Positions 1,917 through 63,131 of a stretch of 64,000 nt of DNA are shown here, piece after piece. A program made the position numbers and the translations under genes. The first letter of the stretch is position 1; each line of letters opens with the position of its first letter. The notes beneath the pieces are model-generated. The model was not told the origin of the DNA. It searched no databases and worked only from the letters and a program-made list of their open reading frames with translations. The DNA comes from Closterium sp. NIES-65 (taxonomy: Eukaryota; Streptophyta; Zygnematophyceae; Desmidiales; Closteriaceae): positions 2,913,001-2,977,000 of the forward strand of contig CANXME010000532.1 of assembly GCA_948144175.1 (NCBI GenBank), read 5' to 3'.

Positions 1917-4900
1917 GCGTGTGTGCTTCCCTCCCTCACTCCATCACTCACTCACTCACTCACTCACTCGCACACTCACTCACTCTCTCCCTTCAACTCA
2001 CACTTTCCCACTCGTTTAATTCTCGTTCAGTCCCCTCCATCCCTTCTTGCCTCGTCCTTAGCAGTTCGTCTGTCCACATGCCAATTCCCAAGGAAGCAGC
2101 ATCCGAGGAAGCAGCAGTGCGGTCGAATAGGTGCGAGCTGTTTCTCTACAATTCCTTTTTCCGTCCCTTCAATGCCCCGTCCACTGCAGTTCGTCTGTCC
2201 ACATGCCAACTGCCAAAAGGCTTTCGCATTCAAGTACAAGTTGAAGGATCATCTTCTCCTTCACAACTCCAATGCCCCCCAGGTGAGCTTCTCTCACTCC
2301 TTCTCTCCTTCCAAATCCCATTCCTCCCTCTTCCCCCCCCTCTCCCCCCTTCCTCTCCCCCCTCTGTCCCCTTCCTCTCCCCCCTCTCCCCCCTTCCTCT
2401 CCCCCCTCTGTCCCCTTCCTCTCCCCCCTCTCCCCTCTTCCCCTGCCCCCTTCTCCGTTTCCACAAGTTGACAACCCCAGCATCTTCCCCAATGCCCCCC
2501 AAGTAAGCTGCCCTCGTTCTCTCCCCCTCTTTTTTTTTTTTTTCCTTTTTCCTCTTCCTCTCCTCTGGCTCCCTCATAATCCTTGTCCACTTCCCCGTCC
2601 CCTTCAAAAATTGTGGCTCCCTTTTGTTTTCCTTCGCTCCCTCATAATCCTTTCCTTTTTCCTTTCCCAGCATTTTCCTTTTTCCTCTTCCTCTCCTCTC
2701 GCTCCCTTATAATCCTTGTCCACTTCCCCGTCCCCTTCAAGAATTGCGGCTTGTATGTGCCCTCCCTGTTAGCTATCCCCGGCCGCACCCCCCCCGCAAT
2801 CACCAGCACCCATGCCCTATCCCCACTGCCCGTGGACATTCAGTCGTCGAGGCAACATGGTGCGGCATGCAAAGATGCTGCATTGGGGCTTTATCAAGGT
2901 GTCTTGTGTTTCCTCTCCCTGTTTTCTATCCCCACCCCCCACCTCCCACCACCAAACCACCAGCACCCATGCCCTCATCCCCTCTGCTCTTGGACATTCA
3001 GTCGTCGAGGCAACATGGTGCGGCATGCAAAGATGCTGCATTGTGAGGAGTGTGGGATTGCGTTTTCTCAAAAGCCAAAGTTCAAGAAACACATGGCCAC
3101 CCACTCAAAGCAGGTGTGTTTCCCTCACTCTCTCACTCACTCACTCGCTCCCTCATTCACCCTCTCACTCTCTCTCTCCCGCACTCACTCTCTCACTCTC
3201 TCACTCTCCCACTCTCCCACTCACTCACTCATTAAATCTCTCGCTCTCTCGACCACTCACTCACTTTGCTCGCTCATTTGCTCACACACTCATTCATCCT
3301 CTCCCTTTCTCACACACCCTCTGGGCGCCTTGTCTGTGATCCTGGCTCGACATGTTTTCCTGTCTGTCTTACCCTCGTCCCCTCGTCCGCATGTTCCCTC
3401 ATTGCCTCATCGCTTCCACTGCATCAGTTGGTGTGTCCGTCCGCATGAAAATGGGTCAAAGAATAGGCGCAAATGTTCTTGCTTCCTTCCCTCGTCCACT
3501 GCAGTTCGTGTGTCCTCATGAAAATTGCCCAAAGGCATTCGCACTCAACTGCTGGTTGACGAGGCACCTTCTAGTGCACAACCCTAATGCCCCCCGGGTA
3601 AGTTTTCCTCTCTCATTCTCTCCTCCTCGCTCCCCACCTCCCTCTCCATTCCCCTTTTCTCCTTGCGGCTCCCCCCTGCCCCCGTTCCTCTTCTCCCTAT
3701 TTCCTTTCCTCGTCCCCCTGTTCCCTTTCCTCTCCCTTTTCCTCCTCTCTCGCTCCTCCTCTTTCTCTCCTCTCACTCCCTCCTTGTCCTCGTCCCCTTC
3801 CACCATCCCTCCCTGTCCATATTGCATCTTCCCATCCCATCCCCTTTGCTTTCTTCACCCGTCCTCCCTCTCTCGCCTCTCCTACGATGTCGTCAACTTC
3901 TCTTGAGCTCTGCTTCTGCTTCTATCAAGGAGACATGGAGTTTACTGCCGTCAGCAGTCCCATTGGCCTGATTGCAAGGAAGCAGCTTCGAGGTGACTCT
4001 TAAGCGACTGAAAAACTGTCGTCAGCAGTCTGATTGGTCTAATTGCAAGGATGCCACGATGCGGTCTAATTGGTGCTGTTCAATTCTCCGCTACCTGTTC
4101 TCTTCCCCACCCCCACTCTCTCCGGTATTCACCAGCACCCGTGTCCTCATCCCCATTGCTTTTGAGGCGCCTCAAAAGCACCCATGCCCTCATCCCCATT
4201 GCTCTCGGACCTTCAAGCGTCGAGACCACATGATGCATCATGCAAGGAAGCAGCATGCAAGGGTGCTGCATTGTGCCTTATTCAGGGCGTCTTGAGTTTC
4301 CTCTCCCTGTTTTCTCTTCCCACCCCCCACCCCCCCCCCCCCCTTTAATCACCAGCACCCATGCCCTCATCCCCTCTGCTCTCGGACCTTCAAGCGTCGA
4401 GACCACATGTTGCATCATGCAAGGAAGCAGCATTGCGGAGAGGGGGGAAGAGGGGAGAAGCTGCAGCGTGCAAGGAAGCAGCGTTGTCAGGAGGGGGGGA
4501 ATGGGGGCATGGCACGGCTTGTAGGTACGCAGCATTGCACGGAAAGGGGGAGTGGAGGGAGGGTGATTGGTGTGTCTGGTGGGGTGGTGGGGAGCGGGGG
4601 TTGGGTAAAGAGTGTGCATGAGGGGAAGAAGGGGAAAAGGGCGGATGGGGGAGAGGTGGGGAGGCATGGAGACGAGAAGGAGGGTGATTTTTTCAGTAAG
4701 GGAGAGGGAAGGAGGGAGGAGGAGGAGAAGGGCAAAGAGGCGAGGGGGGAAGAGAGGGAAGGAGAGGGAAGGAAGGGGGAGGAGAGGGAAGAAGAGGGGA
4801 GGAGGGGGGAGGAGAGGAAGGAGGAGGCGAGGAGGGAGGAAGAGGCGAGGAGGGAGGAAGAGAGGGAAGAGGGAACGAGGGGGGATGAGAGGGGCGAACA

Positions 4901-6940: not shown

Positions 6941-7814
6941 ATGATGGAGGGAGTGGAGGGGGGGGGGTGTGGTATAGGGTGGAGGAAGGGAGGGGGATGG
7001 AGAAGGATGCGGAGAGAAGGGAGGAGTGGTGAGTGGAGGGGGAGGAGGTGGTGGTGCGGGTGACTAGACGGGGGGAAGGGAAGGGAAGGAGAAGAGAGGA
7101 GGGAGCATGGTCCCGGGGAAGAAAAGGGAGAGGTTGCAGGATGGCTGGAGGAACTAATTGTCAGGTATTGGAAGATCTTTGTACAGTATAACATCAGGGA
7201 GGGATCAGTGAGGAGATATCCATACATGCAGTCATGATTGGGATTGGAGAAGCCGGGCATCCATAGGAGGAGTTCGTTACTCTATGTTTGTGCTTTGGCA
7301 ATGCACTACAAGGAGTGCTCCCGGTGCACTGCGTGTTAGTTTCTAGACATCTCAGCTCAACGTATCAAAACCCTTTTGTCATCATGGAACGCTCCTAGTG
7401 TATTGCATCTTGTACAGGAGGTTGTGTGGCCTGATCTGTTATTCTTTGCTTCTTTAGTGCCTGGATAATTTCGCTCTTGAAAATGCTAAATCTTACTATG
7501 AGCTAGTTTAAGTGATGTAGGTACTGTAGCTCGAATTTCATCCTCTCAAAAGGTTCAGACTGTTTGAAAAGAGTTTGTATATGTATCTGTACCAAATGCT
7601 TTTGCGAATGTTTTCTACCCCAGCAATTTCTAACGCGGGGTAGCCAATGTCGCAACTATTATTGGGCGCCAATTTCGTATCACTCGCGTTCCGCCCAGTT
7701 TCTATGCTCAACGCAACGGATACTTCTAGTTGCGCTGCGGGCAGCTTGAACGGGTTAGGTCTTGGATTGGAAGTGCAACGGGACATAAATGTGATTGTCA
7801 GGAGTATAGCGCGT
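6941..7814. other. Z1 downstream / intergenic
   Basis: Purine-rich to about 7150, then mixed composition. No gene seen; the short open frames have no recognisable motif. No clear AATAAA poly(A) signal was found by eye. Confidence 0.4.
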
Positions 7815-8055
7815 AAGCGGATAGAGTATGCGCTGCATTGCGCGGGCCAGGTATAGCGCGCGGTGTGATATTACTTTACTCTTAGTAACGAGGCGCCGTT
7901 TCGGGTGTGATAGAGTATGCGCTGCATTGCGCGGGGCTAGGTATAGCGCGCGCGTGTGATAGTACGAAACCGTTAGTAAGGTGGCGCCACTGCGGGTGTA
8001 ATAAGAATATATAGTACACTGCGGATGTGATAGAGTATATACGCTGCGCCGTTCC
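7815..8055 (+). repeat. About 90-bp tandem repeat upstream of Z2
   Basis: The phrase 'gatagagtatgcgctgcatt', followed by 'gcgcggg', 'aggtatagcgcgcg' and 'gtgtgata', occurs at about 7819-7872 and 7908-7965. A third, partial unit leads to 'gtgatagagtatatacgctg' near 8027-8046. An AT-rich 'ataagaatatatag' (8001-8014) could act as a TATA element for Z2. Confidence 0.6.
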
Positions 8056-8074
8056 GCATCGCCCCGTCAATACC

Positions 8075-8200
8075 GCATTGCTGCGCCGTTCCGCGTTGCT
8101 GCGCCGTTCCGCATTGCTGCGCAGTTCCGCATTGCTGCGCCGTTCCGCGTTGCTGCGCCGTTCCGCGTTGCTGCGCCGTTCCTCATTGCTGCGCCGTTCC
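8075..8200 (+). repeat. 18-bp tandem repeat, 7 copies, in the Z2 upstream region
   Basis: Seven direct copies of a unit like gcgttgctgcgccgttcc, with A/G and C/A variants. The reverse complement of its core (gcgcagcgga) occurs in the N-terminal coding parts of Z1 (about 1145) and Z2 (about 8401). It could be leader DNA or a regulatory array. Confidence 0.75.
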
Positions 8201-8280
8201 GCATCGCCCCGACGGTACCGCCCCACGCCAATCCGCGAGAGTAAGTTTACGTCTGGTAGGGTGATAGCGATACATCGGAA

Positions 8281-9246: not shown

Positions 9247-12200
9247 GTGCGTTTTCCTTGTTCACGCGTCCACTCACTCAACTCGCCCCCTCACTCACGC
9301 GCGCACTCACCCACGCTCCCCCTCATGCGCTCACTCGCTCGCCCACTGAACTCAACGCTCTCGTTCACGCGGACGCTAACGTTTCTCCAGGTTTCTGCCA
9401 GCTCTATTTTTGAGACGTCTCAAAGTCTCTGGTGCCAGCTCTACCCTTACCCCTCGTCTTCCCCCCTCTTGCTCTCTCTGCAGTAGCGGTCGCTTGTGTG
9501 CCCGCATGTGAGTTGCCAAGAATCACCAGCTAACCCAAGCACCTTCTTGTGCCTACGGTACCTCCCCCACTTGCCGCCTGCCCCTCTGCCCACGATTGCG
9601 CCTCACGCCCCTTTCTGCAGCGGCGGCCGTTTGTGTGCCCGCACACGAGTTGCCGCAGGGTGTTCGCCTAGAAATGTTGCGAGACGCCTCATAACAAACT
9701 TGTTCCCTTCCCTCATTGCGCCTCATGCCCCCTCCCTTGTGCTCTGCAGCGGCGGCCGTTTGTGTGCCCGCATGTGGGTTGCCACAAGGCGTTCCCCAGA
9801 AGCTCCAAGCTAACAAGGCACCTTATAGCGCATGACCCCAATGCTCCTCGGGTGAGGCTTTTTCTGTTTCGCAAGCGGGGTGGTTTCCTCTGGACTCTTA
9901 GCAAACAACATGGGTGAGGCAATTTCGTTTTGCAAGTCCTTGTTGAGGATTCTCAAAAGCGACCACCAACGACTACCGTGTTTTGAGTCGACTCATATCG
10001 CGACTCATGTCCCGCGAATTATGTCCGAAGAATTCTCAAAAGCGACCACCAATCCAGTGACTACCGGCTAGCTAGGCACCTTGCTGGGTTTCCCAGGTTC
10101 ACAGGTTCACCTCAGAGGCAAGGGAAGCTCACCTGGGAGGAGGACCCTGTTGCTCCCCAGGAGACACAATTTTCAAACAGCAGCAGGGACGTAAAGCTAG
10201 GTGTAAAGCAAGAAGAACAACAGCTAGTATGTACTTTCTTTGTAAAATCAAGTGCTCGAGGAGCTTAGATCCCACTTTAGTTGAGTCCCCTTTCATGCCC
10301 TGCCTTGATCCTCCCTTTTCCCGCACTTCTCCCCCATCCCGCTCGCCAATCTATAACACCGTGCTCTCATCCCATCCGCATTGCTCCCAAACCTTCAAGT
10401 GGCAAGATGCACTGTTGCATGCAAGCATGCATGCAGAATGCATGGGTAAGTAACGCACCCATATCGTTTCAGCATGCAAGCACGCAGCACTTGCGGCTTT
10501 GATTGATGTGCCCTGTATCTCCTCTCCCTGTTTTCTCCCCCACCCGCTCACCCCCGGCCGATCCCCAGCTCACATGCCCTCATCATCCCCACTGTCTCCG
10601 AGCCTTCAAGTACCAAGATGCCCTGGCGTTCCATGTACGGACGTGCAGCTTGGTTTATCCTCTCCCTGTTCTCTTCCCCACCCGCACACCCTCAATCAAT
10701 CCACCAGCTCCCGTGCCCTCACCATCCCCACTGTCTCCGAGCCTTCAAGTACCGAGACGCCCTGGCGTTCCATGTGAGGACAGAGCACGCCGGGGAATGG
10801 GGGACTAGGGGGTGGGTGGTTGGTGTTTCGCGTGAGGGGGTGGGGAGTGTGGGCGGGGTAAGCATTGAGCAGAAGAAGTGGGGAAAGAAGGGAAAGAGAG
10901 CGAATAGGGGAGTGGTGGGGAGGCGTCATCCTGTGAGAGAGGCGGTAGAAGGGGGGAAGGAGAGGGGGGAAGGGGAGGGAGAGAGAGGGGAGGAGAGGGA
11001 AGGAGAGAAAAGGAATGGTGAGGAGATGGGTGAAGAGGGAAGGACCGTGGGGGAGAGGAATGAAGAGGCGAGGGATGACGAAGAGAGAGGAAGGAGAGGG
11101 GAGGAGAGGTATGAAGAGGCGAGGGATGACGAAGAGAGAGGAAGGAGAGGGGAGGAGAGGAATGAAGAGGCAGGATTGACCCATCGCCTTCCTTGCAGGC
11201 ATGGCAGCTTGGGAAGGCCACTGGGCCAGCCGCAGGAGGAGGGCCGTGGGGCTGGAGCAAGGAGGGGGGAAGCGGAGGAGGGAACGCAGTCCTTGCTAGG
11301 CTATACGGGCAGCATCAGAAGGGTTGTGATGCCGCTTCAAGGGGAGGGCAGCGGTGGAGGAGGAGGAAGGGAGACAGAGCAGGCAGCAGCAGAGCAGGAA
11401 GCAGCAACTCGATCCTTACGTGAAAAGGAGGGCAGCATGGAAAGTGCAGAGGTCCAGCTTCAAGGGGAGGTCAGCAGTGGTGAAGGAGGGAGGGGGACGG
11501 AGAAAAGTCCAAGGACCCAGTCCTTCATGTGTAAGGAGTGTGAGAAGACGTTTTCTCGCAGGGAAGTGTTCAGGAAACACATGGCCACTCACTCGAAGCA
11601 GGTGTTTTTTGCTCATTCCCCCACTCACTCACTAGCTCAGTCGTCACTCTCTTACTCACTCCCTCGCTTCCTCAGTCCCTCACTCCCAAATGCTGCATGC
11701 GTTTGGTGACTGCTCTACCCGTTGCCAACGCTCGTCCTCTCTTTCTCTCGTCCACTCTTTCCCTCGTCCTCTCTTCTCTCCCACGTATCGCCGCTTCTGC
11801 GTCAGAGTTTGCCCATTCACGCGCATCCTTCCAGTGGATTCACCGGCCAGTGAAATCGCTCAAGTCACTTGTTCTCTCTGCCTGGCTGTTCCTCTGCCCC
11901 TGCCCTCATTTCTCTCCCTCCTCTCCCTCACTGCTCATGTTGTTGCAGAGGTCGTTGGTGTGTCCAAAGTCTCTTTTGAGAAGGCGTTTGTGCAAAAGTG
12001 ATTTCGTGTGTCCAAAGCCTGACTGCAACAAGGTGTTTGCAACAAATTATCGCTTACAGAGGCACTTAAACGTGCACGACCTCAATGCTCCCCGGGTGGG
12101 TTCCCCCTTGCCTTTTCGAGTCTATAAACCCAAAAATGTGAGTCACCTCGTTCGCCAAAAATTACCAGCTAACGAGGCTCTTGAATGGGCACAGCGCCAA

Positions 12201-15259: not shown

Positions 15260-15435
15260 ATAATTTTTAAAAGTGTAACACTTTTTCAAATTTCGTATTG
15301 TGAAAGCAATGACGTGGCCAACGCAGCAAAGGTAGCGGCTCGACGCTACTCACCCCTCTTTTGCCTACAAAAGAGGAACGTGATTTCAGTAGCTCCACCC
15401 ACGTTCTTCATTTCCAATTTCTAGTTTTACTTTCC
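15260..15435 (+). repeat. A1 split direct repeat
   Basis: Nearly identical to A2 from ataatttttaaaagtgtaac to agttttactttcc. It carries a weakened TATA region (cctacaaaagagg; A2 has cctataaaagagg), which suggests the repeat holds the element's promoter. Confidence 0.85.
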
Positions 15436-15531: not shown

Positions 15532-16719
15532 GTGGCTCCCGCCAACACTACACTTAATCGAGAGGCGGAAAAGACGACTACTCGGGGTAATACTTCGGAG
15601 CACGCGAACGCGCCCGGGGCTCCCGACCGCCGCGGAAAACGCCCTGCTGAGGACAATTTCGGCGAGGGCCCCTCAGGAGTCGAAGTTCTGCTCGGGAGCA
15701 ACTCCCGAGCCCCCTCTGAAGAAGCACGCGCAACTGTGAAACAGTCGCGCATGCCCCTTGCTGACGAGCGCGTGGCTGCCAGGCAGCCGCGCGGTCCGGT
15801 CAAGTCAACGGGGGCTGACGCGGACGGCGACGCTGGTCAGCCGGGGCCCACTCTGCAGAAGCGGCAGAAAGCAGCGGCCTCAGCAGAAACCGCCCCATTC
15901 AACCCCCTCGCGTCCCTCACTGCGCAGCAAATGCAAGCGCTGCTCTCGATGTTACAGCAGAACGCGGCGGTTACAATCGCAACTTCATCCGACTACATTT
16001 CAACACCTGCAAAAAATGAAAATCAGAAGGAAGTCACCGCCCCTCGCACCAACAAGGCGGCTCGCGTCAACGAGACCACTTCCGCACCACTTCCCGCGCC
16101 CGCACCTGCGCTGATCGCCGCTCAAGACGACAGCGACGACTCAGAGAACGAAGATGGTGAGGCCCCCAACAACATTACCCGCCGTCGTATTATTGCACCC
16201 GCACCCTCCCTCCCACCCCTCCACCTCACACCCGCATCCACCACATTTATGCGCAAAGGTGTGCGCGATCAGGCGGAGCTCTTTTCTACCATCTAGGCGC
16301 ACCTGAAGCACGTCAATTTCAAGCTCCAGCACGGCGACATAGAAAGCGCCCTCACCAACGTCGCGGAAATCGAGACGCTCATCCACAAGCGCTTCGAAGT
16401 CCTATTGGTGGCGGACGAGGCGGGGTTCGAAGCTGCCGATCGTTTTCAGCTGTACCAGTCCAAGAGCGTTTTGACCTCACGCTCGTACAAGCTCGCCGTC
16501 GCCGATGTGGCGGCTCTCGAACGCGCACGGGCCGGCTACACTCGCGGCAACCGCATGCCCACCCGAGATGGCGACACGGAAGGCAAGGGCATGCCGCCCG
16601 CAAGCTACCACGAACCCCGCTTCAAAGGGGTGTGCTTCCGCTGCGGCCAGCCCGGCCATATGGCGAATGCTTGCCCCATGGGAGGGCGAGGCACTAAAGG
16701 CCCCTCACCCGTGGTGTGA
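15532..16719 (+). pseudogene. PAT/Ngaro element gag-like protein with CCHC zinc knuckle
   Basis: One frame from 15532 to the stop at 16717-16719, interrupted by one in-frame TAG (16294-16296). Residues 1-254 are Ala/Pro/Thr-rich; the part after the stop has a helical region (HVNFKLQHGDIESALTNVAE) and a classic knuckle C-F-R-C-G-Q-P-G-H-M-A-N-A-C (CX2CX4HX4C, about 16630-16671). Such a protein packages the element RNA. An ATG choice is uncertain; 15532 is the first in frame. Inactive because of the stop, unless read through. Confidence 0.75.
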
Positions 16720-17460
<741 letters not shown>

Positions 17461-20800: not shown

Positions 20801-22232
20801 GCCGGTAGAAGGGAACCGACTCGTCGAACGTGACGTCCTGGGAGGACAGAACACGACGAGAGGTGGGGTGGTAAAACTACCACCCAGGTGCGTCAGTGGG
20901 GAAACCCAGGAAGACGCAAAGAGCAGCACGAGGGGACAGCTTGTCCGCAGACAAGTCGCGGACAAACGCCCGAGATCCCCAGACACGGAACGCCGACGCA
21001 TCGCCAACCTTCCCCGTCCACAGCAAAGCTGGGGAGGTCTCCGGTCTGGAGACCCTGGGCTGAAGGTTGATCTGATGCGCGGCGTACCGAACCGCAAACG
21101 GCCACAGAAAATGGGGGGCAGCCGCATGCACCATGGACGTACGGGCGACGTCCATGACAATGCCGATGCGGCGCTCAGCAATCCCATTCTGCTGTGGAGA
21201 GTCCGGAAGTGTGAAGGTCTGGCGGATGCCTCGTGCTCGACAGTAGGCTCGCAGAAGGCCGGAGGAGAACTCTCCGGCTCTGTCCGAGTGCAGACGCAAA
21301 ACAGGAAAGTCCGAGCCGAAGCTCCGCCTGAGCTGGAGACGAGCTGCACGGATCCAGTCGATCAACACCTCAGTGACCTCACCCTTGCTGCGCAAGGGGA
21401 AGACTGTGGTGTAACGCGATTAGTCGTCAACCACCAGCAGGAAGTAGCATTCGTGACCCTGTCCACGGACGCGGGCTGGGCCCCACACGTCCATGTGAAG
21501 CGTGTGCATCGGGGCCTCCGTCGGAGGAAACGGGGAGGAGTGAGGGGTAGCCCGCAGGCGACCCTCGACACAGGGGACACAGGGAGGGCCAGGCCCCAGA
21601 GGAAGGGGAGGGAGGGACCGGGGAAGGCCAGAGACAAGAAGGCGAGAGGCCATGCCCCGGAGACGAGGCAGGGAGGGGTGACCCATCCTGTGGTGCCACA
21701 GGAGGGTCTCGTGGGACAGGAGGCGACACGAGCAGGGGGCAGACTCAGGACCAGACCTGGACACTGCAGCAAACACCTGACCCGACGCAGCTACCTGACC
21801 AGACGCAGGAGGAGGAGACGGAACAGTGAGTGTGTACAGGCTCGACCCCGGCCCACGTGTGAACGTGGTCAAGTGTCGACCCGTGTCCGCGTCCGTGCAG
21901 TGGGTGTCCCGTCGGCGTGCAGGGGTGAACTGGTCAACCCCTGCATCCTGTAGGTCAGCACCCGCCACCAAGTTCGTAGAGAACGAGGGGAGGTAGAGAC
22001 CGGACAGGGAGCCAGACGGGACCGCAGGGCACGGAAGGAGAGTGGAGTAGCGAGCCAGAACAGGACCCCCAGAGGGGTCCGCCAGGGAGACTGCCACAGG
22101 CCGACTAAGCGGCGTGAGTGTGGTGCGGTCTCGAAAGAAGGAGCGAGACGCTCCTGAGTCAAGAGTGAAGGTGAGAGAGGGCGGAGCCGACGCTGTACCT
22201 GAGAGAGCAGACTCACCAGCACCTGGGGACAC
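17817..22232 (-). pseudogene. C1 pol: protease, integrase, reverse transcriptase, RNase H
   Basis: One frame with in-frame stops at about 21420 (Tyr codon TAC to TAA by comparison with C3) and 20877 (Gln CAG to TAG). Reading down the minus strand: protease DSGAS (about 22150), pre-integrase H-H-C-C zinc region (CVPCVEG), integrase HMDVWGP, HSDRAGEF, GIAERR (the D,D,E residues), an Ala/Gly/Pro linker with RREPLSPLELREWFA, RT with LDFSTAFLQG and YVDD (about 18790), RNase H with ASWADD, SCEAEIYA, LYVDNKA and NTADVFTKAL. Domain order PR-IN-RT-RH marks Ty1/copia. The zinc-knuckle part seen in C2 and C3 is missing. Confidence 0.85.
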
Positions 22233-24187: not shown

Positions 24188-25875
<1,688 letters not shown>

Positions 25876-47565: not shown

Positions 47566-48548
47566 AGCTTTCACAATTGATGCCTTTTTCTTTTCCCCAA
47601 TAGCTTGGGGGGCTCTTTTATGCATACGGTTGAGGGACACGAGCGAGAGAAATGTTCGCTCATTATGTGCTTCACCCTGGCTTGTAGAAATTGAACCATA
47701 TGAGCAGTAACTGAGTTCCAATTTGAGAATTTGATACCGCATGCGGTTGAGTAAATTTGACTTACGATATGTGTGTCTCTGTCGTAACTGCTTAAAAACG
47801 TATTGAATTAAACGTATTGACTTCGAGCCGGTTGAGTATGTCATGCAGCTCACTCCCCCACAAATTCTCCCTCCTGATAACTTAGCTGTACAGGAATAGC
47901 TTTTTTTCCTCTATAGTGATGCATTGGAGGAGTTTCTCTCGAGCAATGGTAATTGTGGGTCAACTAATGTCGCAGCTGTCAAGGTGGAACTTGAATTGCA
48001 GCCAACCTTGCACTACATGCGGCAATTTATCTCTCAACCAATCAGTGACCTCGTTCACATTTGCGAATAAGCGCTTACTTTGAGTGAGGTGAGGTGCCTT
48101 TAGGCTTTAGCCACTACGTAAGACGATGGATTGATGACAAGAAACGTTCGTTGGGTTGAGACACGTGGCAAATTCGGGCCAGTAGTGCTTATGAAACTCC
48201 CTTCCACGCCGAGCTACATGCATTACGAAAGGCCCAGCGCTGCGAAGCTGCTGCATGCGCCCCATTTCATTTCCTTCGACATTCAAATGTGTCGCCCTGT
48301 ATCTTCACATAGCGAATAGGTCAATCAAGTAGGTCGAGTACGCCGAGTAAACCACACGGTGGGACCGGTATAGAACGTCGAGGCGCGGACGTCCAAAAGC
48401 TCTCTGTTGTCACTTGGTATAGAGCGTAAAGGCGAGCAGGCTGCGCGGTTGTGATGTCAACGGTTGCGCACTGCGCTGTCGGGGAATAGTTTCACTTCAC
48501 GTCTAAATCAGCTTGAGTCGACTAAAGAACGGTAGTAAAAAGTGACTC
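47566..48548. other. Intergenic region upstream of Z3
   Basis: No gene recognised. A CCAAT-type word (aaccaatcag) lies near 48036-48045, and a partial copy of the palindrome (ttgagtcgactaaag) near 48513. No convincing TATA box close to the Z3 start. Confidence 0.4.
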
Positions 48549-49157: not shown

Positions 49158-52100
49158 GTGCCTCCCTCACTCCCTCACTCACTCACTCACTCACTCACTC
49201 ACTCACTCATTCACTCACTCACTCATTCACTCGCTCACTCACTCGCTCGCTTGCTCATTCACTCACTCACTCACTCGCGGACTCACTCACTCCCTCTCAC
49301 TCCCTTGCTCACTCACTCACTCGCTCCCTTCCCCACTCCCTCCCTCCCTCCCTCCCTCCCTCCCTCCCTCCCTCCCTCCCTCCCTCCCTCCCTCCCTCCC
49401 TCCCTCCCTCCCTCCCTCCCTCCCCCCTTCCCTCCCTTCCTCCCCCCCTCCCTCCCTCGCTCCCTCCCTCGCTCCCTCCCTCCTTCACTCCCTCGCTCAC
49501 TCATTCACTCCCTCACTCTCACACTTCACAGCCGCACGTCTCAGGTGCCTCTACCCGTTTCCCTTCATTCCATCATCGTTTTCTAATCGACTCAAAACGT
49601 AGCCTTAAGTATCCGTTGTTCTCTCCTCCCCTCCCCCCCTCCCTCTCGTACTGCCTCTCTCACTGCAGATTTTGTGTCCGCATGATAATTGCGAAAGGGC
49701 ATTCGCATTCAACTACCAGCTACAGAGGCACCTTCGCCTTCATCACAACCCCGATGCTTGCCAAGTGAGCTCTCTTCGCTCCCTCTGTCCCCCACCCTCC
49801 CCTTTCCCCCTTGCCTGCTTCCCCACCCCCCACACCCCCGCCCCCCGTTTTCCCTTTCCCTCATCATCCTTGCCTCTTCCCTCGTTTCCATTTCCGCTGC
49901 CCCTATCCGCTTCGACATTCTCTCTTTCCTATCTTTGCCCTTTCTCGTCCCTGCTGTTCACTTCTCTCATTACCTTATCCTCTTCCATCCCTTATTGCCC
50001 CCTCCACTGCATCAGTTCGTGTGTCCGCATGAAAACTGCCAAAAGGCATTCTCATCCAACCACCTGTTGAAGGAGCACATTCTTACTCACAACCCCAATG
50101 CTCCTCCCCGGGTAAGTTACCCTCGCTCTCTTCCCCTCCGCCTCCGCTTCTTTTGAGTCGACTCAAAAGCTTCCCCTCCGCCTCCGCTTCTTGTCCCGGT
50201 TCTCCCTTCCTCCTTAACTGGCACCCTGTTTTTCCGCGACTTGTTTCTCTGCTACCTGTTTTCTTCCCCCACCCCCCCCCCCTCCCCCCCCCCCCCCCCT
50301 TCCCCGCAAACATCAGCACCAATGCTCTCATCTCCACTGCCCTTGCACCTTCAAGTGCGGAGATGATATGGTGTATCATCCACGGAAACAGCGTTACAAT
50401 CCAATTGGTGTAACTTGATTCTCCTCTGCCTGTTCGCTTCCCCGCCCTCCCCTCCCCAATCACCAGCTCCCATGCTCTCATCCCCACTGCTCTCAAACCT
50501 TCAAGAATCGACGCAGCATGTTAAAGCATGCAAGGACGCAGCACAAGAAAGAGGGGGGAAGTGGGAGCAGGGTACTTGGTGTGCGTGGCGGAGCGGAGGG
50601 GAGTGAGGCGGGGGTAAAGAGGGCACATGAGGGGGACAAGGGGATGAGGGTGCACGAAGGACTGGTGGTTAGGGAGGAGAGGGAAGAAGAGGCAGTGAGA
50701 GGGAAGGAGAGGGAAGAGGAGGAAAGGAGGGGAGAGGAGAGGAGGGAAGAAGCGAGGAGGGAGGAGTGGTGGAAGGGAGCCGCGAGGAGGGTGTGGGAGA
50801 GGAGGGAAGCGGAGAGGAGGGAGGAGGAGAGGAAGGAAGCGGCAAGAAGGGAGGAGGAGATGAAGGAAGCGGCGAGGAGGGAGGAGGAGAGGAAGGAAGC
50901 GGCGAGGAGGGAGGAGGAGAGGAAGGAGGAGGAGAGGAGGGAAGCGGCGAGGAGAGAAAAGGTGAGAAAGGAAAAGGCGAGGAGGGAGGAGAAAAGGAGG
51001 GGAGAGGAAAGGAGGGAAGAGGCGAGGAGGGAGGAGGAGAGGAAGCAAGCAGCGAGGAGGGAGGAGGAGAGGAAGGAAGCGGCAATAAGGGAGGAGGAGA
51101 GGAAGCAAGCCGCGAGGAGGGAGGAGGAGAGGAAAGAAGCGGCGAGGAGGGAGGAGGAGATGAAGAGGAGGGAGGAGGAGAGGAAGGAAGCGGCAAGAAG
51201 GGAGGAGGAGAGGAAGGAAGCGGCGAGGAGGGAGGAGGAGAGGAAGGAAGCCGCGAGGAGGGAGGAGGAGAGGGAGGAAGCAGCGAGGAGGGAGGAGGAG
51301 AGGAAGAGGAGGGAGGAGGAGAGGAAGGAAGCGGCAAGAAGGGAGGAGGAGAGGAAAGAAGCGGCGAGGAGGGAGGAGGAGAGGAAGGAAGCGGCGAGGA
51401 GGGAGGAGGAGAGGAAGAGGAGGGAGGAGGAGAGGAAGGAAGCGGCAAGAAGGGAGGAGGAGAGGAAGCAAGCCGCGAGGAGGGAGGAGGTGAGGAAGGA
51501 AGCGGCGAGGAGGGAGGAGGAGAGGAAGGAAGCGGCAAGAAGGGAGGAGGAGAGGAAGGAAGCCGCGAGGAGGGAGGAGGAGAGGAAGGAAGCCGCGAGG
51601 AGGGAGGAGAGGAAGGAAGCAGCGAGGAGGGAGGAGGAGAGGAAGGAAGCGGAAAGAAGGGAGGAGGAGAGGAAGCAAGTCGCGAGGAGGGAGGAGGAGA
51701 GGAAGGAAGCGGCAAGGAGGGAGGATGAGAGTAAGGAAGCCGCAAGGAGGGAGGAGGAGAGGAAGGAAGCCGCGAGGAGGGAGGAGGAGAGGAGGGAAGA
51801 GGTTCTTAGGCAGGAATGTGAGAAGAAAACGAGTGTTGTGATAGAGAGAGATGGAAGGAGAGGCGAGGAGATGGAAGGAAAGGGGAGAAGAGGGGAGGAG
51901 AGGGATGGCGAGGAGGAAACACCCCTTTTTCTTCCTTCAGGGGAGGGCGGCATGGGAAGGGAAACGATGCAGGTTCAAGGAGAAGGCAACGCGGTCGGAG
52001 GAGGGTTGGGGACAGAGAAGAGAGCAAGAACCCAATCCTTGGCTGCAGAGGAGCGAAACACCATGGGAATGGCAGCGATGCAGCGCGATGCAGCGAAGCA

Positions 52101-53782: not shown

Positions 53783-54300
53783 CCGTATCGCCCCGGATAT
53801 AGGCGCCGTCCGATTAAAGGCGCCGGCGCTTCTATCTGGAGCATGGCGCTTATGGCCGGAATTCGATTACAAGCGCCCCCCCCCTGAAAATGCTTTACTT
53901 ATTATAAGCGCATGCCTAAATTTATTTTTCATTCCTGATTAAAACGGTAACGAATATTTCTAGCGAGTCACATCACATTTTCACTTTGTTTGACTTTCGC
54001 GGACCTCACTGGTTGCGCGTCCAGTCAGTATGAGCTGGCACGCGGGCAAAATGACGCGCCAAAGCTCAGTGCACCGTCAGAAATTCGCCCTCGCGCGATT
54101 CTGATTCTGGACGCTGTAAAGTCTTAATTCGGTTCAACTTACGAGACTGAAATGTACATGTTGGTGCGTTTGAATTGTATTTCTGTATTTGTCTTTATAT
54201 AAGCGCCGGCGCTTATGGCCGTTATTCAATTACAAGCGCCACCCCTAAAAAAATCGATTTTATTATAAGCGCCGCGGCGCTTATATCCGGGGCGATACGG
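53783..54300. mobile_element. MITE with TA target duplication (pogo/Tc1-mariner-like)
   Basis: Terminal inverted repeats of about 26 bp begin CCGTATCGCCCCGGATATA; left and right differ at one base. TA lies on both sides (53781-53782, 54301-54302). Inside are subterminal words ('aagcgccggcgctta', 'attcgattacaagcgcc') in both orientations. No transposase. TA duplication and end sequence suggest the Tc1/mariner-pogo group; that class assignment is inference. Confidence 0.75.
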
Positions 54301-54302
54301 TA

Positions 54303-54571
54303 AAAGCATTCTCACTTCCAACATACCGTATAACTGTACCGTGTTGGTTTGAAGGTTTTGTGTATGTCTGTAAGCTGTAGCGTATCTGCAAACTCGAGCA
54401 ACCGAACAGCACCAACTCGACTCAGTCTGCTTCCCCAGCAGCGGACTTGTGCGCGGACAGCACACATAGGCATGGGCAGAAATAGGTTGTGCGTGCAGCG
54501 CAGGCACAGCTAGGTCGCGCGTGCAGCGCAGACACACTTAGGTCGCGCGTGCAGCACCGCTATATGCGGAA
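54303..54571 (+). other. Upstream region of Z4
   Basis: Contains a triplicated phrase 'aggtcgcgcgtgcagcgca' with variants (54485-54555). No clear TATA box. Probably 5' leader or promoter of Z4. Confidence 0.4.
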
Positions 54572-55376: not shown

Positions 55377-55409
<33 letters not shown>

Positions 55410-57663: not shown

Positions 57664-60600
57664 GTGGGCTGCTCTTACTCTCCTCACTCACACTCACTCA
57701 CACTCACTCTCTTACCTGCACTCATGCTAGGTTTCTCACCCACCCGGCCATCGTATGTGAGGCAGCACTTGGCCATACTGGAGAAAGCGTAAGTGTTAGC
57801 AGATCTTCGGACATTTTCCAGTGAGCAGCGGCGCTTAGGTAAAATGTCCGAAGGTTTCTCACCCACCCGGCCATCGTATGTGAGGCAGCACTTGGCCATT
57901 CACTCCCTCCAGGGGGATTGATGCTCAGTCCGCTGGCTTTGTCCGCATGAGGAGGACTAGGAAGGCCTCACTCACTCACCCACTCAATCACTCCGGTTCT
58001 TCACCCTCCCTCGCTCGCCTTCCTACCACTCCCTGCTACCCCACCCCACCAATTGCCTTACAGCAGAAGTCGTTTGTGTGCCCACACAAGGACTGCAGAA
58101 GAGCGTTCGGGAGGAAGTACCACCTGCCTATGTTGCGCCTGACGCCCTGGAAGGGCAGCGTCCAGCGTCCGGACGTTCACGTCCGGACGCTGGACGCGTC
58201 AAATCGGTTTGACGCTGGACGTTCGGGGAAAAAAATTTCGGGCAGCCCGAAAAAAAATTCTCCTGCACGAAATTGACTCGCGATTTCATTGCGACCAGAA
58301 TTGACGATGAAATTGCCATCTGGGGGCCGCGTTTTTGACCTAAAAAACGCAACCCTCACTTATTCCCCCCTACACATTTGTACCCATCCACATCTACCTC
58401 TCCCAACCTGGTCGACCCCCAACTAAACTAGAGGACCAGATCTAGATCGACATTACACAGATCTGTTTCTCTCGACATTGTCAAGCATTCCTTACACTAG
58501 AATTCGCCAGTCACGCTACTAAGCCTTCCTAGCTAAAATTAGGTTAAGGCGATTAAGATATCATGTCAACTCCTAGTCCCGCCGGTCATTCTGTTAGTGC
58601 CTCCACGCCTTCTGGAGATTTTCAGGATTTTCTGGATATTATGGAGTATTTATAACTATAGGTGACAAATGTTAACTTCTTGCATTCTAACCCCTGCGTA
58701 TCCTTACTAGGCAGGTTTTTTTACCCCTGCCCAGAAAACATTTTTGCCCTGCCCGGACTAGCGTCAAGCGGGCGTCCAGGGCAGAGGGCACCGGGCGTCA
58801 AGCGTCTGGACGCCCCGTCCAGACGCCAGCGTAAAAAACGCCTGACGCGTCAGGCGCAACATAGCCACCTGCAGCGCCACATGCAGTCGCATGCTCCCGA
58901 CCGGGTGAGTCCCTCCCTTTCCGTGCTAGTGATGCCAACCCAATCATATGAGTCGACTCACAAGTCTCATCATTCGGGAAGAAGGAACTACCACATGCAG
59001 CCTCCCATCCCATGCCCCTGACCAGTTAAGTTCCTCCCCTTTCCATGCTACCAACGCCAACCCAATCATATGAGTCGACTCACAAGTCTCATCATTCAGG
59101 AAGAAGGAACTACCACATGCAGCCTCCCATCCCATGCCCTCGACCAGGTAAGTTCCTCCCCTTTCCATGCTACCAACGCCATCCTAATCATATGAGTCGA
59201 CTCACAAGTCTCATTGTTCAGGAGGAAGGAAGTACAACCTGCAGCGCCACATGCAGCCTCCCATCCCACGCCCCTGACCGGGCCTGTTTTTGCATCATAA
59301 GACATGCTGCGACAGGTGAGGCTGTTCCTTTTATCAATCTCCTCTCCCGATCCTCTCCTTCCTCTGCATCCCACCCCACCCGTTCCCCTGCCCGCACCCT
59401 AAGTGCGCCCAAACATTCAGCCTGCATGCCAGCATGCAGCGACACGTGAGGGTACTGTTCCCCTGATTCTGTCTCCCTCCCCAATCCTCTTTTTCCATTT
59501 TCTTTCCCTACTTCCCCCCAGTTCCCCTGCCTACACCCGCAGTGCACTCAGACGTTCAGCCTGCACGCCAGCATGCAGCGGCACGTGAGGGAGCAGCACT
59601 GGGAGGAGGAGGGCATTCGAGACCGGCTTGATCGAATCAACAGAGAGATCAAGGCGAAGCAGCAACGGCACGGGAGGGAGGTCGATGTTCTCCTGATTCT
59701 CTTGCCTCCCTCCATCTGTGCAACCCCTACATCCCCACCCTACCAGTTTCCGTGTCCGCACCCACACTGCACCCAAACATTCAGCCTGCATGCCAGCATG
59801 CAGCGGCACGTGAGGGAACAGCACTGGGAGGAGGAGGGCATCCGAGACCGGCTGGATAGAGTAAATAGAGAGAGCAAGGGGAAGCAGGAGGAGGAGGGGG
59901 GGATTGGTGATCGGTTGTGTAGGGTGAAGAGAGAGAGTAAGGGAGGGGGTGCGGAGCATAAGGTTCAGGAGAAGGTTGGGGTCCAGGAGAGAAGACAGCA
60001 GAAGGGACAGCAGAAAACAGAGGAGAAAGCACAGGGGAAGACGCAGGAAGCACAGGAGAAAATGCAGAAAGCACAGGAAATAATACAGGAGAAACCGAAG
60101 GAGAAAACGCAGGAGGAAGCGCAGGAGAAAACACAAGAGAAGGAATGTGAGAAGACAGCAGAAGCAACAGGAGGGATTGGAGGAGGGGGGAAGGAGGGGA
60201 TAGCTGGGAATGAGGAGCGGAGAGGAGGGGAGGAGGAGCAGAGAGGAAGGGAGGAGAGGAAAGCAGGGGAGGGGGAGAGGGAGGAGGAAAGGAGAGGTGG
60301 AGACGAGGGGAGAGGAGGGGAGGAGGAGAGGGAGGAGGAAAAGAGAGGTGGAGACGAGAAGAGAGGAGGTGAGGAGGAGAGGATCGCAGCAGAGGGGGGA
60401 AGGAGAGGAGGGGGAAATCAGAAGAGAGAAGGCGAGCAGGAGGAGAGAAGGGGTGATGAAGGGGCTGGAAAGGGTTTGAGTGTGATGGGGAGTGGTGAGA
60501 AGCGGTTTGACACTCAAATGTGTGATGCTGAATTGTTTGATGCTGCTGAAGCAGACAGGCAAGAATCTGCTGACGTGGAGGATAACAGAGAGATCCTTGC

Positions 60601-61003
60601 GACCAATGGGAGAGAAGGGGCGGTGCAAGGGATGCAGGGCCACCTGCAGCAACAGAAGCAGCACCTGAAGAAACACCTGGGGGTTGGTGAGGATCGCCTG
60701 GAGAAGCACCTGAAGGAGAAGGAGCAGCCTGGTATGGAGATGAAAGATCACCTGAACCAACAGAAGGAACAGCTGAGGGCAGTTAAGGAGCACTTGAGGA
60801 GGAAGGAGATTCTCCTAAAGGAGGAGGAGGATTTTCTGAGGCGGCAGCAGGAGCACCTGAGACAACAGAGGGAGCACCTGAAACAACAGAACGAGGATCT
60901 GAGGCAACGAGAGGAGCAATTAGCAAGGCAAGAGCAGCACCTGGGGGAACACCTGAGCGGGGAGCACCTGGGGGAAGAGCACCTGGGAGGACACCTGACC
61001 TGA
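54572..61003 (+). CDS. Z4 locus: C2H2 zinc-finger / coiled-coil protein, more diverged
   Basis: Parts: long acidic N-terminus (54572-57663) ending in a CGQCGMAF finger, a 31-aa finger exon split by a transposon (58067-58127 plus 58873-58904), degenerate tandem exons (58930-59300), 'CxHPxCTQTFSLHASM' finger exons (59522-59680 and from 59747), and a last part with charged sequence and coiled coil to 61003. The order matches Z1-Z3, but the RRCKLRKHLKATEK box is missing. The N-terminus uses three frames in turn (breaks near 55000 and 56290), so there are either short introns I could not place, sequence errors or decay. Function as for the paralogs. Confidence 0.55.
57664..58066 (+). other. Z4 intron 1: CTCA tract, duplicated finger relic with hairpin
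   Basis: CTCA/CACT tract at 57680-57715. Finger relic 'gtttctcacccacccggcca' is present twice (57730-57776, 57853-57899). Between the copies lies an inverted repeat CTTCGGACATTTT / AAAATGTCCGAAG (57805-57817, 57841-57853). Confidence 0.6.
58067..58904 (+). pseudogene. Z4 finger exon interrupted by a MITE
   Basis: 58067-58127 plus 58873-58904, minus one target copy, gives exactly 93 nt (31 aa): KSFVCPHKDCRRAFGRKYHL, QRHMQSHAPDR, then GTGAGT. That is the same length as the intact finger exons of Z1. The inserted 737-bp element adds stops, so the exon is dead unless the insert is skipped or removed. Confidence 0.75.
58128..58864. mobile_element. Non-autonomous DNA transposon (8-bp target duplication, hAT-like)
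   Basis: Terminal inverted repeats CTATGTTGCGCCTGACGC (58128-58145) and its exact complement (58847-58864). Target duplication ccacctgc on both sides (58120-58127, 58865-58872). Subterminal words around 'gcgtcc(a/g)gacg' repeat in both orientations near both ends. 737 bp, no transposase frame. An 8-bp duplication is typical of hAT; family assignment is inference. Confidence 0.8.
58928..59300 (+). repeat. 122-bp tandem repeat of a decayed finger exon, 3 units
   Basis: Three units with a period of exactly 122 bp, marked by TGAGTCGACTCA at 58949, 59071 and 59193. Each carries a remnant of the finger exon ('gga.gaaggaa.tac' ... 'cacatgcagcctcccatccc'). Stop codons follow, so these are probably not coding. 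Confidence 0.8.
58949..58960. repeat. Palindrome P5a (GTCGAC form), in 122-bp unit 1
   Basis: TGAGTCGACTCA; the same 12-mer recurs at 59071-59082 and 59193-59204, one per 122-bp unit. Confidence 0.85.
59522..59680 (+). CDS. Z4 finger exon, copy 1
   Basis: CCCCAG acceptor; FPCLHPQCTQTFSLHASMQR, HVREQHWEEEGIRDRLDRIN... up to GGGAGGGAG/GTCGAT. Intact C2H2 finger. A further, shorter relic of the same exon lies at about 59400-59450. Confidence 0.55.
59747..61003 (+). CDS. Z4 last exon: finger, amphipathic repeats, coiled coil
   Basis: TACCAG acceptor; FPCPHPHCTQTFSLHASMQR, HVREQH (intact C2H2), then Glu/Lys/Gln helix-like repeats (EKTQE.AQEK, 60000-60160), Gly/Glu/Arg-rich sequence (60180-60470) and heptads HLRQQREHLKQQNEDLRQRE (about 60640-60960). 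Ends GEHLGEEHLGGHLT. The frame is open back through 59573, so copy 1 and this exon may also be read without splicing. Confidence 0.6.
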   Translation, partial: FPCPHPHCTQTFSLHASMQRHVREQHWEEEGIRDRLDRVNRESKGKQEEEGGIGDRLCRVKRESKGGGAEHKVQEKVGVQERRQQKGQQKTEEKAQGKTQEAQEKMQKAQEIIQEKPKEKTQEEAQEKTQEKECEKTAEATGGIGGGGKEGIAGNEERRGGEEEQRGREERKAGEGEREEERRGGDEGRGGEEEREEEKRGGDEKRGGEEERIAAEGGRRGGGNQKREGEQEERRGDEGAGKGLSVMGSGEKRFDTQMCDAELFDAAEADRQESADVEDNREILATNGREGAVQGMQGHLQQQKQHLKKHLGVGEDRLEKHLKEKEQPGMEMKDHLNQQKEQLRAVKEHLRRKEILLKEEEDFLRRQQEHLRQQREHLKQQNEDLRQREEQLARQEQHLGEHLSGEHLGEEHLGGHLT

Positions 61004-61026
61004 GGGGGCACCTGAGGGGGAAGCAC

Positions 61027-62409
61027 GTGGGCGGGAATGGGTTGCTACTGCTGCAAGATGCAGTATGCTTAAGCTCTGGTGCTGCTGTGGGGACGACTGG
61101 TGGTGGTGTGGCGGCAGCTGATGCTGACGTGGCAGCTCGTGCTGATGTGGCAGCAACTGATGGTGATGCAGAAGTGGCTGTTTGTGATGTGGCAGGTGGC
61201 GATGCTGATATTACAGCAGCTGATGGTGATGTGGCAGAAGCTGTTGATGAGGTGGCAACCGATGCCGATGCAATGGCGACTGTTGGTACGAGTGTGGGCG
61301 GTGGGGGGACTGGTTGTGTGGCTGGTGGTGTGGCTGGTGAGGGTGCTGATGGGAGGATAAGGGAAGGCGTGAGGGAAGTGGAGGTGGCGATGCGAGGAGA
61401 AGGAGGGGGAGGGGGTGAGGGGAAGGTGGAGGTTGGCAAAGGAGCAATGGCATCAGAAGTGGCGGTTGGTACAGGAGCTGTGGCGTCAGGGGGTGGTTGT
61501 GAGGCGCCTCAAAAGTTGATGCGAGGAGAGGAGGGAAGGGGAGCGGGTCAGGGGAAGGTGGAGGTTGGCAAAGGAGCAATGGCATCAGAAGTGGCGTCAG
61601 AGGGGGTAAGGAAGTACAAGCAGGCTGGGATGATGAGCTGGAAGCGAAGGAGGTGGTGTGATAAGGACGTGGTGAGAGAGAAGCATGTGGTGAGAAGCAA
61701 GGAGATGGCGGCAGGAAAGCTGGTAAAGTGTAAGGAACGAGATGGCAAGACAAGGAAGGGACCATGTGAAGGCACTGAGGAACGAGATGGCAAGACAAGG
61801 AAGGGACCATGTGAAGGCACTGAGGAACGAGATGGCAAGACAAGGAAGGGACCATGTGAAGGCACTGAGGAACGAGATGGCAAGACAAGGAAGGGACCAT
61901 GTGAAGGCACTGAGGAACGAGATGGCAAGACAAGGAAGGGACCATGTGAAGGCACTGAGGAACGAGATGGCAAGACAAGGGAGAGGAAGCTGGAGGCATT
62001 GGGAGAAGGCAATTCAAGGAAGGGACCATGTGAAGGCACTGAGGCAAGGCACGCAGAAGGGGAAGGAGCTTCGACAGGGAGCGAAGGAGAGGGCGACACA
62101 TCAGCATCAAGTGACGGGGATGCAGCAGCAGAAAGTACAGCTGCAGCAGCAGCAGCAGCAGGGGAGGGCACGGATGGCGCAGCAGAGGGAGCAGATGGGG
62201 CCATATGTGGCTTCTGCTTTACTGCCTTCCCGTCCCTCCCTGCCTTGGAGCAGCACACACAGCAGCAGCACCGCTCCGTGCCATGCCAGCACTGCAACAA
62301 GCGCATCTCTTTCTCTCGCTTCAAGCGCCATTTGAAGGAGCAGCATGAGGTGGAGCAACGACCATCCCACCCATGCAAGGTGGATGGGTGCAGCAAGGCG
62401 TTCAGCTCT
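61027..62409 (+). CDS. Z5: finger gene with 15-aa repeats (5' part)
   Basis: ATG at 61027, only 23 bp after the Z4 stop, so it could also belong to a longer Z4 transcript. Ala/Asp/Val-rich start with repeated ADGDVA units, a duplicated block (61389-61495 and 61518-61602) and five to six copies of RDGKTRKGPCEGTEE (61735-62040), then clear fingers ICGFCFTAFPSLPALEQHTQ, QQH; VPCQHCNKRISFSRFKRHLK, EQH; and HPCKVDGCSKAFSS, which is cut by the donor GTGAGT after 62409. The finger style (HPCKVDGCSKAF) resembles TFIIIA-type fingers. Probably nucleic-acid binding. Confidence 0.6.
61500..61511. repeat. Palindrome seam P6 (GGCGCC form)
   Basis: TGAGGCGCCTCA followed by AAAG, right between the two copies of a duplicated coding block (61389-61495, 61518-61602). 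Confidence 0.8.
61735..61985 (+). repeat. 45-bp coding tandem repeat in Z5
   Basis: Five near-identical 45-bp units (RDGKTRKGPCEGTEE) plus a displaced partial unit near 62018-62043. Each unit contains one Cys. The near-identity suggests recent expansion or homogenisation. Confidence 0.9.
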
Positions 62410-63131
62410 GTGAGTCCCTCTCCCTGCCGAGCCCCCGCCGTACCAATCGCATATCCTTTTCCAGTTTCAAGCGTCATTTGAAGGAGCAGCATGAGCTGGA
62501 GCAACGACCATCCCACCCGTGCAAGGTGGATGGGTGCAGCAAGGCGTTCAGCTCTGTGATTCGCCTAGACTGCTGATGCTGTGATCCCCGCTTAAAACAC
62601 CTGCTGCTCCCTCCCTTCACCATGCAACACGGCACCCTGAGGGTGCACAACAGGGAGTGCCACAATTGTGCCACCAGCACAATCCTCCCTTTGCCTGCTC
62701 GGCCCCAGGCTGCTGTCAGTTTATGAGTCGACTCAAAAGTAGGCTCAGCCCCCGGCTGCTGTCAGCTCTTCACATACCAAGTGAACGTCTCCCTACCCTC
62801 CCTTTCTTTCTCCCTTTCCCCGCCCTCCTCCTCAGAGCAGCCCAGCAACCCGAGGTCGCACATCAGGGCGTGTCACCAGAAGGACCACCCCTTCGCCTGT
62901 TCCCTCCCACACTGCTCCCTGCGCTTCACATACCAAGTCAACCTCCCCCTACTCTCCCTTCCTTTCCCCTCTCTCACCCTCCCTCCCCCACTCCTCCTCA
63001 GTTCAGCCCAGCAACCTGAGGGCGCACATCAGGGCGTGTCACCAGAAGGACCGCCCTTTTACAAGCTCACTTATTGCATGGCCCTCTTCCTACTCTCCCT
63101 CCTCTCCCTTTCTTCCCCCCCTCCTTCCCAG
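62410..63131 (+). other. Z5 introns and decayed finger exons
   Basis: A near copy of the Z5 finger end (FKRHLKEQHELEQRPSHPCK...) lies at about 62466-62575 and ends in a stop. Further relics: FACSAPGC (62690-62719), FACSLPHCSLRFTYQVN (about 62840-62950) and a partial HIRACHQKD (63005-63060). Those at 62840 and 63003 run into pyrimidine tracts. Confidence 0.5.
62724..62735. repeat. Palindrome seam P7 (GTCGAC form)
   Basis: TGAGTCGACTCA followed by AAAG, between 62701-62719 and 62747-62765 (17 of 19 identical, around ggctgctgtcag). Confidence 0.8.

Follow-up and report, generated by a model that had tools for sequence, protein, structure and literature searches.

The window analysed here, a stretch of 64,000 nucleotides (nt) from Closterium sp. 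NIES-65 (assembly GCA_948144175.1, contig CANXME010000532.1, positions 2,913,001 to 2,977,000; part of the contig called C532 below), contains very short palindromes, six of which lie between the two copies of a duplicated flank. The genes of the window look eukaryotic: three of the nine open reading frames tested match C2H2 zinc fingers (E values of 4e-5 to 3e-4, below Pfam's cut-off), and a reading by eye suggests that the genes are split by GT-AG introns. C2H2 zinc-finger genes with repeated exon pieces are found at 4100-4400, 10520-10775 and 58900-59300. The rbcL protein of the assembly starts with MSPQTETKAGAGF, which we take to be of the streptophyte type, and the protein from one rbcL copy matches Rubisco chains in the PDB (best 9chz_A, 1067 bits). 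The host sequence is taken to be a nuclear genome of the green lineage, probably of a streptophyte.

The initial annotation, made from the letters of the window, had placed six palindromes between duplicated flanks (at 4160, 9409, 9984, 50151, 61500 and 62724) and three more within tandem units of 122 base pairs (bp) at 58949, 59071 and 59193. All of these palindromes are present at those positions, and the duplicated flanks around the six are real, with remeasured lengths that differ slightly. At the first site, the palindrome TTTGAGGCGCCTCAAA of the GCGC type (4161-4176; 24 bp when target bases are counted) separates a left flank copy of 27 nt (4134-4160) from a right copy identical at 25 of 27 positions (4177-4203). 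The shortest flanks, of 11 nt and identical at 11/11 positions (9396-9406 and 9433-9443), enclose an insert at 9407-9432 that holds the ACGT-type palindrome TTTGAGACGTCTCAAA (9409-9424). At the 9984 site, a spacer of 59 nt (9970-10028), which contains a TCGA-type palindrome (9984-9995) and a degenerate tail, lies between 24-nt copies with 23 identical positions, for which the derived coordinates are 9946-9969 and 10029-10052; a possible decayed relative, TTGAGGATTCTCAA (9943-9956), overlaps this duplication. A decayed relative of the TCGA type, TTGAGTCGACTAAA, occupies 48513-48526.

The flanks at 50130-50152 and 50170-50192 are identical over all 23 nt, and the insert between them, TTGAGTCGACTCAAAAG (50153-50169), forms a 20-bp palindrome together with target bases (50150-50169). 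At the 61500 site, the GCGC-type palindrome TGAGGCGCCTCA (61500-61511) lies between copies whose ungapped core measures 66 nt (61399-61464 and 61531-61596, the latter 94% identical and consisting of purine-rich simple sequence); the whole duplication measures 66-79 nt at about 93% identity. The last site has 23-nt flanks (62697-62719 and 62743-62765, 21/23 identical) around an insert at 62720-62742 that holds the TCGA-type palindrome TGAGTCGACTCA (62724-62735). The same TGAGTCGACTCA is found once in each of the three 122-bp units, at 58949-58960, 59071-59082 and 59193-59204. The unit reads as a piece of a zinc-finger exon followed by an intron, with the palindrome inside the intron. Shortly before these units, at 58800-58860, an inverted repeat around CGTCTGGACG...CGTCCAGACG is followed by the palindrome CGCCTGACGCGTCAGGCG.

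A search of the whole 874-Mb assembly (2400 contigs) reveals that the palindrome family is real and abundant far beyond the window. The core motif TTGAGNCGNCTCAA has 37,342 copies compared with 23 for the reversed pattern, which served as the control for motif counts, and the 18-letter palindrome pattern TTTTGAGNNNNCTCAAAA has 30,327 compared with 4; the proposal that the motif is commoner than chance thus holds genome-wide. Four discrete centres, TCGA (13,080 copies), GCGC (5,851), ACGT (5,047) and AATT (2,601), together account for 26,579 of the 30,327 copies of TTTTGAGNNNNCTCAAAA, whereas centres of the form C..G number just 8 (control 2), 4 of them CCGG. A longer form, GTGACTTTTGAGTCGACTCAAAAGTCAC, has 1,013 copies. 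All of these are raw counts that include duplicate contigs and tandem arrays: one 455-bp stretch of contig C6 is also present on C347 and C1658 with 100% identity, which suggests that some contigs of the assembly are duplicates and that the counts are inflated; the insertion events must be fewer than the copy numbers. Within the window, TTGAGNCGNCTCAA with at most one mismatch has 7 matches compared with 0.22 expected, a number that none of 100 shuffles reaches.

For closer analysis, 264 kb were read directly, comprising 110 kb of C6, 50 kb of C9 and 20 kb of C10, which were picked for listed copies, and 84 kb of C532 with the window, which were picked independently of copies. This sample contains 53 matches to TTGAGNCGNCTCAA; the C532 stretch has 3 in its 84 kb, or one per 28 kb, a density similar to the genome mean of one per 23 kb. 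The sample holds 72 perfect palindromes of at least 14 bp, and the family core is present in 54 of them. Decayed centres such as TCAA and ACAT are also found. A set of 55 loci was obtained from 95 sites with up to two mismatches by keeping those with at most one and collapsing arrays; two second members of arrays (C6 89606 and C6 94384) stayed in the set.

Direct repeats of the left and right flanks are found at 41 of the 55 loci, compared with 343 of 2000 random places drawn from this sample, when an ungapped repeat with a score of at least 14 is sought no more than 45 nt from the core, on the left as well as on the right. The high random background is due to the richness of this genome in tandem repeats. 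The proportion is 31/36 for exact 18-mers and 32/46 for single-copy loci, and it becomes 39/53 (30/35 for exact copies) without the second members of arrays; in the unselected C532 stretch, four of six loci are duplicated. The expectation that most copies carry flanking duplications is borne out in the 264-kb sample. With a low-complexity filter, the figures are 35/55 and 220/2000. Earlier forms of the test, which the one above supersedes, gave 22/55 and 34/2000 with a complexity filter that dropped long duplications, 25/55 and 263/2000 where distant repeats could win (gap 60, unfiltered), and, at a score of 14 without the adjacency limit, 83% of the 95 sites compared with 31% of the 300 control places. 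Among the 41 scored loci, the duplication is 16-102 nt long (median 36), and the flank copies are 0.71-1.0 identical, with full identity at 9. With the 11 nt at window position 9409, the range is 11 to about 100 nt; the initial annotation was right that flanks are duplicated, but not about a size of 20-25 bp.

The association was also viewed in reverse. Spacers of at most 60 nt separate the two copies in 50 pairs of local direct repeats; at 13 of these, the palindrome was flagged by script in the spacer or within 20 nt of it, and at least four unflagged pairs (C6 94233, C9a 2492, C9a 4160 and C9m 1933) show a decayed palindrome by eye. Many of the remaining pairs resemble simple sequence or minisatellites. 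Additionally, tandem arrays of palindrome plus flank exist, for example at C6:107990-108155 with a step of 37.

The core consists of TTTTGAG, a 4-mer and CTCAAAA (18 bp), in which the 4-mer is self-complementary in the four main types, and the palindrome reaches about 44 bp when the arms are included. The outer arms differ by type: TCGA copies often have GTCACCT, AATT copies GTCACTC or TCAACC, and ACGT copies longer, varied arms. The arms agree within a copy and vary between copies, with an agreement score of at least 5 at 10/55 loci, whereas 2000 permutations over all 55 loci give 1.3 such loci on average and 5 at most; the excess is weaker when permutation is confined to centre types, several of which have a single member (10/55 compared with a mean of 5.3 and a maximum of 11). 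A degenerate AATT pattern, which allows for two arms of five bases and for mixtures of them, fits 140 copies genome-wide, of which 50 are listed. Among these 50, 43 are symmetric (30 GTGAC/GTCAC, 12 GTTGA/TCAAC and 1 GTTAC/GTAAC) and seven are asymmetric, four of the seven being one tandem array on C56; the entries on C6 and C347 are likely duplicates of one place. Full GTGAC/TCAAC hybrids are absent from the 50 places listed of the 140, whereas free pairing of arms would give about 39% hybrids by our own estimate from the listed frequencies.

The inserts of the 32 close-fitting loci measure 16-52 nt, with at most 28 nt at 21 of them, and the two halves of the insert are unequal by at least 3 nt at 24 of the 32. 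At C9b 22026, the half-unit CGACTCAAAAGTCACCT occurs twice, head to tail, on the right side. In the 264-kb sample, 131 of the 186 occurrences of the half motif lie within palindromes, which indicates that the sample has no large population of longer elements with separate ends; 55 lie outside, compared with about 32 expected by chance according to our estimate. About eight tandem repeats, with variants among them, of a 20-nt unit that contains one half motif (like GACTTTTGAGGCACTTTTGC) lie near C6 137343 (chunk position 95343).

Predicted empty sites, composed of the left flank, a single copy and the right flank, were compared against the sample. The paralogues read at five loci (C6_67307, C9m_1963, C532_24168, C9b_12172 and C6_76979) have a single copy of the flank and lack the palindrome; C532_24168 is the window site at 4160, for which two zinc-finger paralogues are available. 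The reading was confined to these five and left out C6_93299, C6_94217, C9b_15420, C9a_5039-5087 and C532_82729, and the spanning paralogue at C6_45048 is uninformative as it sits in a 28-bp satellite. At C6:109301 (C6_67307), the single site at which an empty allele was sought, none was found: the two further full-length matches are 100% identical, and both carry the insertion. The duplicated flank of 60 nt at this site appears on reading to span the end of an exon together with a GT splice donor, and the insertion may therefore leave splicing intact via the duplicated splice site.

Other features of the window stand apart from the family. Two perfect palindromes, ATAAGCGCCGGCGCTTAT (54199-54216) and TATAAGCGCCGCGGCGCTTATA (54264-54285), lie 47 bases apart and are possibly the ends of an unrelated inverted-repeat element. 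The strand asymmetry of the window is strong, with A at 15,747 compared with T at 11,053 and G at 20,982 compared with C at 16,218.

These observations are best accounted for by a family of mobile palindromic mini-elements whose insertion into nuclear DNA would at once duplicate the target, with both halves of the palindrome templated; we put the probability of this reading at roughly 0.45. Since the duplicated flank and the palindrome are jointly absent in the paralogues read, a single event is the simplest reading. The range of duplication lengths suggests that the two strands were cut at points separated by these distances and that the gaps were then filled, and it argues against an ordinary transposase; to our knowledge, transposases with a fixed stagger do not produce such variable duplications. 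The arms, which change in step on both sides, and the self-complementary centre point to one source for both halves. Of the two options offered by the initial annotation, an inserting palindromic mini-element is favoured by the presence of one family at tens of thousands of places, by the empty paralogous sites at five loci and by identical flanks at 9/41, without the 20-25 bp duplication attached to it. Because unrelated sites share the same core, the other option, in which a repair process templates the palindrome locally, finds no support. Joining in the manner of repair, with a special templated filler, is possible, and it belongs to the model that we prefer.

A more specific form of this model, which we hold tentatively and at clearly less than even odds, is a eukaryotic mobile element of oligonucleotide size, in which the unit of heredity would be a half-palindrome of about 9-25 nt and one template ending in a self-complementary 4-mer would extend both ends of a target with a variable duplication. 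In the preferred model as a whole, each strand of the target would be nicked once, at points separated by tens of bases, and fill-in of the staggered ends would yield both flank copies. The same short template, which may be an RNA or a half-element in single-stranded form, would serve to extend both ends, and its copy would end in TCGA, GCGC, ACGT or AATT; the identical 3' ends could then anneal via the 4-mer and be sealed, so that a perfect palindrome is rebuilt from one half. An RNA template in this scheme would end exactly at the centre of the palindrome, with the 5' end NCGN CUCAAAAG..., and arrays would form afterwards by slippage. The scheme also accounts for the uneven halves and for the one second half-unit at C9b 22026.

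Several results weigh against the mobile mini-element. Neither a template RNA nor a source locus, polymerase or endonuclease has been identified, in searches aimed only at Y1 transposases. The paralogues are 10-28% diverged, so they likely represent the ancestral state and demonstrate no polymorphism, and the loss of an insertion by recombination between the flank copies would leave an identical trace. Local direct repeats are also scored at 17% of the random places, so that single weak cases are no proof. By the reported test, 14 of the 55 loci have no duplication, including 5 of the 36 exact copies; the 14 comprise several decayed copies, the five exact 18-mers and some loci with sub-threshold repeats of 11-16 nt (C9a 3295, C9a 5916 and C532 29416). 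Conversely, at least four complex local duplications (C6 99821, C9b 16244, C9b 21386 and C10 1168) have no palindrome. A target consensus is not clear at the 32 duplication boundaries; the first base of the duplication is A or C at 25 of the 32, an excess for which overlap with the AAAA arm may be responsible. Finally, the absence of hybrid arms would equally be expected if a palindrome were inserted ready-made.

Such ready-made insertion is the alternative that we take most seriously, although we consider it doubtful. A self-annealed duplex oligonucleotide, or an opened hairpin, from a few master loci would be end-joined into natural breaks with long overhangs and its arms trimmed unevenly. 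The anatomy would be alike, the halves of most inserts are indeed uneven (24/32), no full hybrid arms occur among the 50 AATT places listed of 140, and a duplication of this kind is described for the repair of staggered breaks with complementary 3' overhangs in the available part of PMC8355091. Yet this explanation requires abundant oligonucleotides of four types, and alone it leaves the change of the arms in step on both sides between sub-types unexplained. A related idea, in which local snap-back repair creates a new palindrome at each break, would explain why the arms vary between copies and are palindromic in each. It is very improbable, and for the core it is refuted by the copy and centre counts, with the same 18-bp core at about 30,000 places and one of four centres in 26,579 of 30,327; it could still apply to the outer arms.

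An ordinary DNA transposon or miniature inverted-repeat transposable element (MITE) with terminal inverted repeats, or its excision footprint, would share the inverted symmetry, the direct repeats on both sides and the high copy number. We regard this as improbable, since the duplication is not of fixed length, the separated half motifs form no population in the 264-kb sample, and the insert barely exceeds the palindrome (at most 28 nt at 21/32 loci); the reading is already disfavoured, and a rare full-length element elsewhere is possible. It is quite improbable, too, that the palindrome came first and that slippage induced by its hairpin later duplicated the flank. Arrays of flank and palindrome such as C6:107990-108155 show that such expansion occurs, but slippage would copy the flank (D) and palindrome (P) jointly and produce D-P-D-P, whereas the sample most commonly shows D-P-D, with a single palindrome, and the paralogues read carry neither the palindrome nor a second flank copy. 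A library adapter or assembly artefact is hardly credible: the centres, taken together with the G and C that flank them, correspond to common restriction sites and the assembly does hold identical copies of contigs, but the flank copies have diverged by point mutation to a varying degree (identity 0.71-1.0), and decayed centres occur.

A comparison with known systems reveals partial likeness in each case. MITEs and foldback elements have inverted symmetry, a high copy number, no coding capacity, a target duplication that is short and of fixed length, and terminal repeats that can be told apart as separate ends. The family described here shares the first three of these features and differs by its variable long duplications and almost complete lack of an interior. 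Twin-primed products of non-long terminal repeat (non-LTR) retrotransposons have a variable target duplication and two inverted complementary DNAs of one RNA joined in the target. The outcome proposed for the mini-element would be similar to that of twin-primed, target-primed reverse transcription on a very short template, and the variable target duplication of a non-LTR retroposon of the short interspersed nuclear element (SINE) kind is present; the inserts here measure only 16-52 nt, however, their halves are alike and their junction is fixed. No 3' tail or internal RNA-gene body was seen on reading the 32 inserts, although RNA families were not searched for.

The REP and REPIN palindromes of bacteria, which are linked to RAYT (Y1 HUH) transposases, are likewise tiny, palindromic and non-coding and form sequence groups of many dispersed copies, as far as the available part of PMC3116915 describes them. 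With 30,327 copies, the family resembles REP/RAYT systems, whose short palindromes number in the hundreds or more; it differs in residing in a eukaryotic nucleus and in having a flanking duplication of variable length. The Y1 transposase profile PF01797, which matched 5 of 14 control genomes, has no match in the assembly. The palindromes of Volvox organelles, according to the part of PMC2670323 available, are also short and spread in non-coding DNA of a green-lineage genome and have the loops TTTA/TAAA. They differ in that the DNA in which they spread is that of organelles, and they are described as seemingly inert once in the nucleus; the terms 'target site' and 'duplication' are absent from the main text of that paper. 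As for organelle DNA in the present assembly, 20 of the 24 matches to plastid rbcL are full-length and equal-scoring (contigs C40, C75, C97, C162, C265, C824, C1848, C1961 and C2174), and they are often oppositely oriented on one contig, which indicates multi-copy plastid sequence or rearranged assemblies.

Tandem duplications shorter than about 100 bp are known from the repair of staggered breaks, by CST-Pol alpha or patch-mediated, and no conserved filler is described in the available part of that source (PMC8355091), unlike the conserved palindrome family that fills the duplications here. Filler of varied origin, as expected for patch-mediated duplication, is not seen at the loci studied, where one conserved palindrome family forms the filler. 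The introner elements of Amoebophrya are introns whose inverted repeats are 8-20 nt long and whose direct repeats measure 3-5 nt in the part of PMC7789003 available; they resemble the present family in spreading inverted and direct repeats through a genome, but the duplications here are far longer. Some copies of the family adjoin the edges of zinc-finger exons on reading, for example at window position 4160.

Foreign sources of the family were considered and rejected. In IMG/VR, at least 120 stretches contain TTTTGAGNNNNCTCAAAA, but a self-complementary centre is present in 2 of the 120 matches listed. Chance alone would give 1 in 16, a higher proportion, and these matches thus show no sign of the family. 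In GTDB, 8 stretches contain CTTTTGAGNCGNCTCAAAAG compared with about 4 expected by our own estimate, which is about the chance level; the centre is self-complementary in 2 of the 8 (CCGG), and a flank duplication is not visible within about 40 nt on each side.

The MITE, REP/RAYT and SINE readings each fail on at least one feature tested here. The initial annotation knew of no described element with these properties, and none was found among the papers listed by searches of the open-access literature. The established families of mobile elements compared here each appear to lack one or more defining features. Should a reverse transcriptase of the long interspersed nuclear element type turn out to be the machinery, the family would become an extreme variant of retroposition. 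If the proposed insertion is true, a non-coding sequence of 18 bp can multiply in a eukaryotic nucleus, with about 30,000 visible copies, and every insertion would also create a local tandem duplication. Staggered breaks, and the way in which they are sealed, would then be recorded by the copies on a large and datable scale, and the insertions would be a source of new tandem repeats, arrays of which do exist. Additionally, they would offer a possible route to the duplication of splice sites, and the family would bear on the question of how small a mobile element can be.

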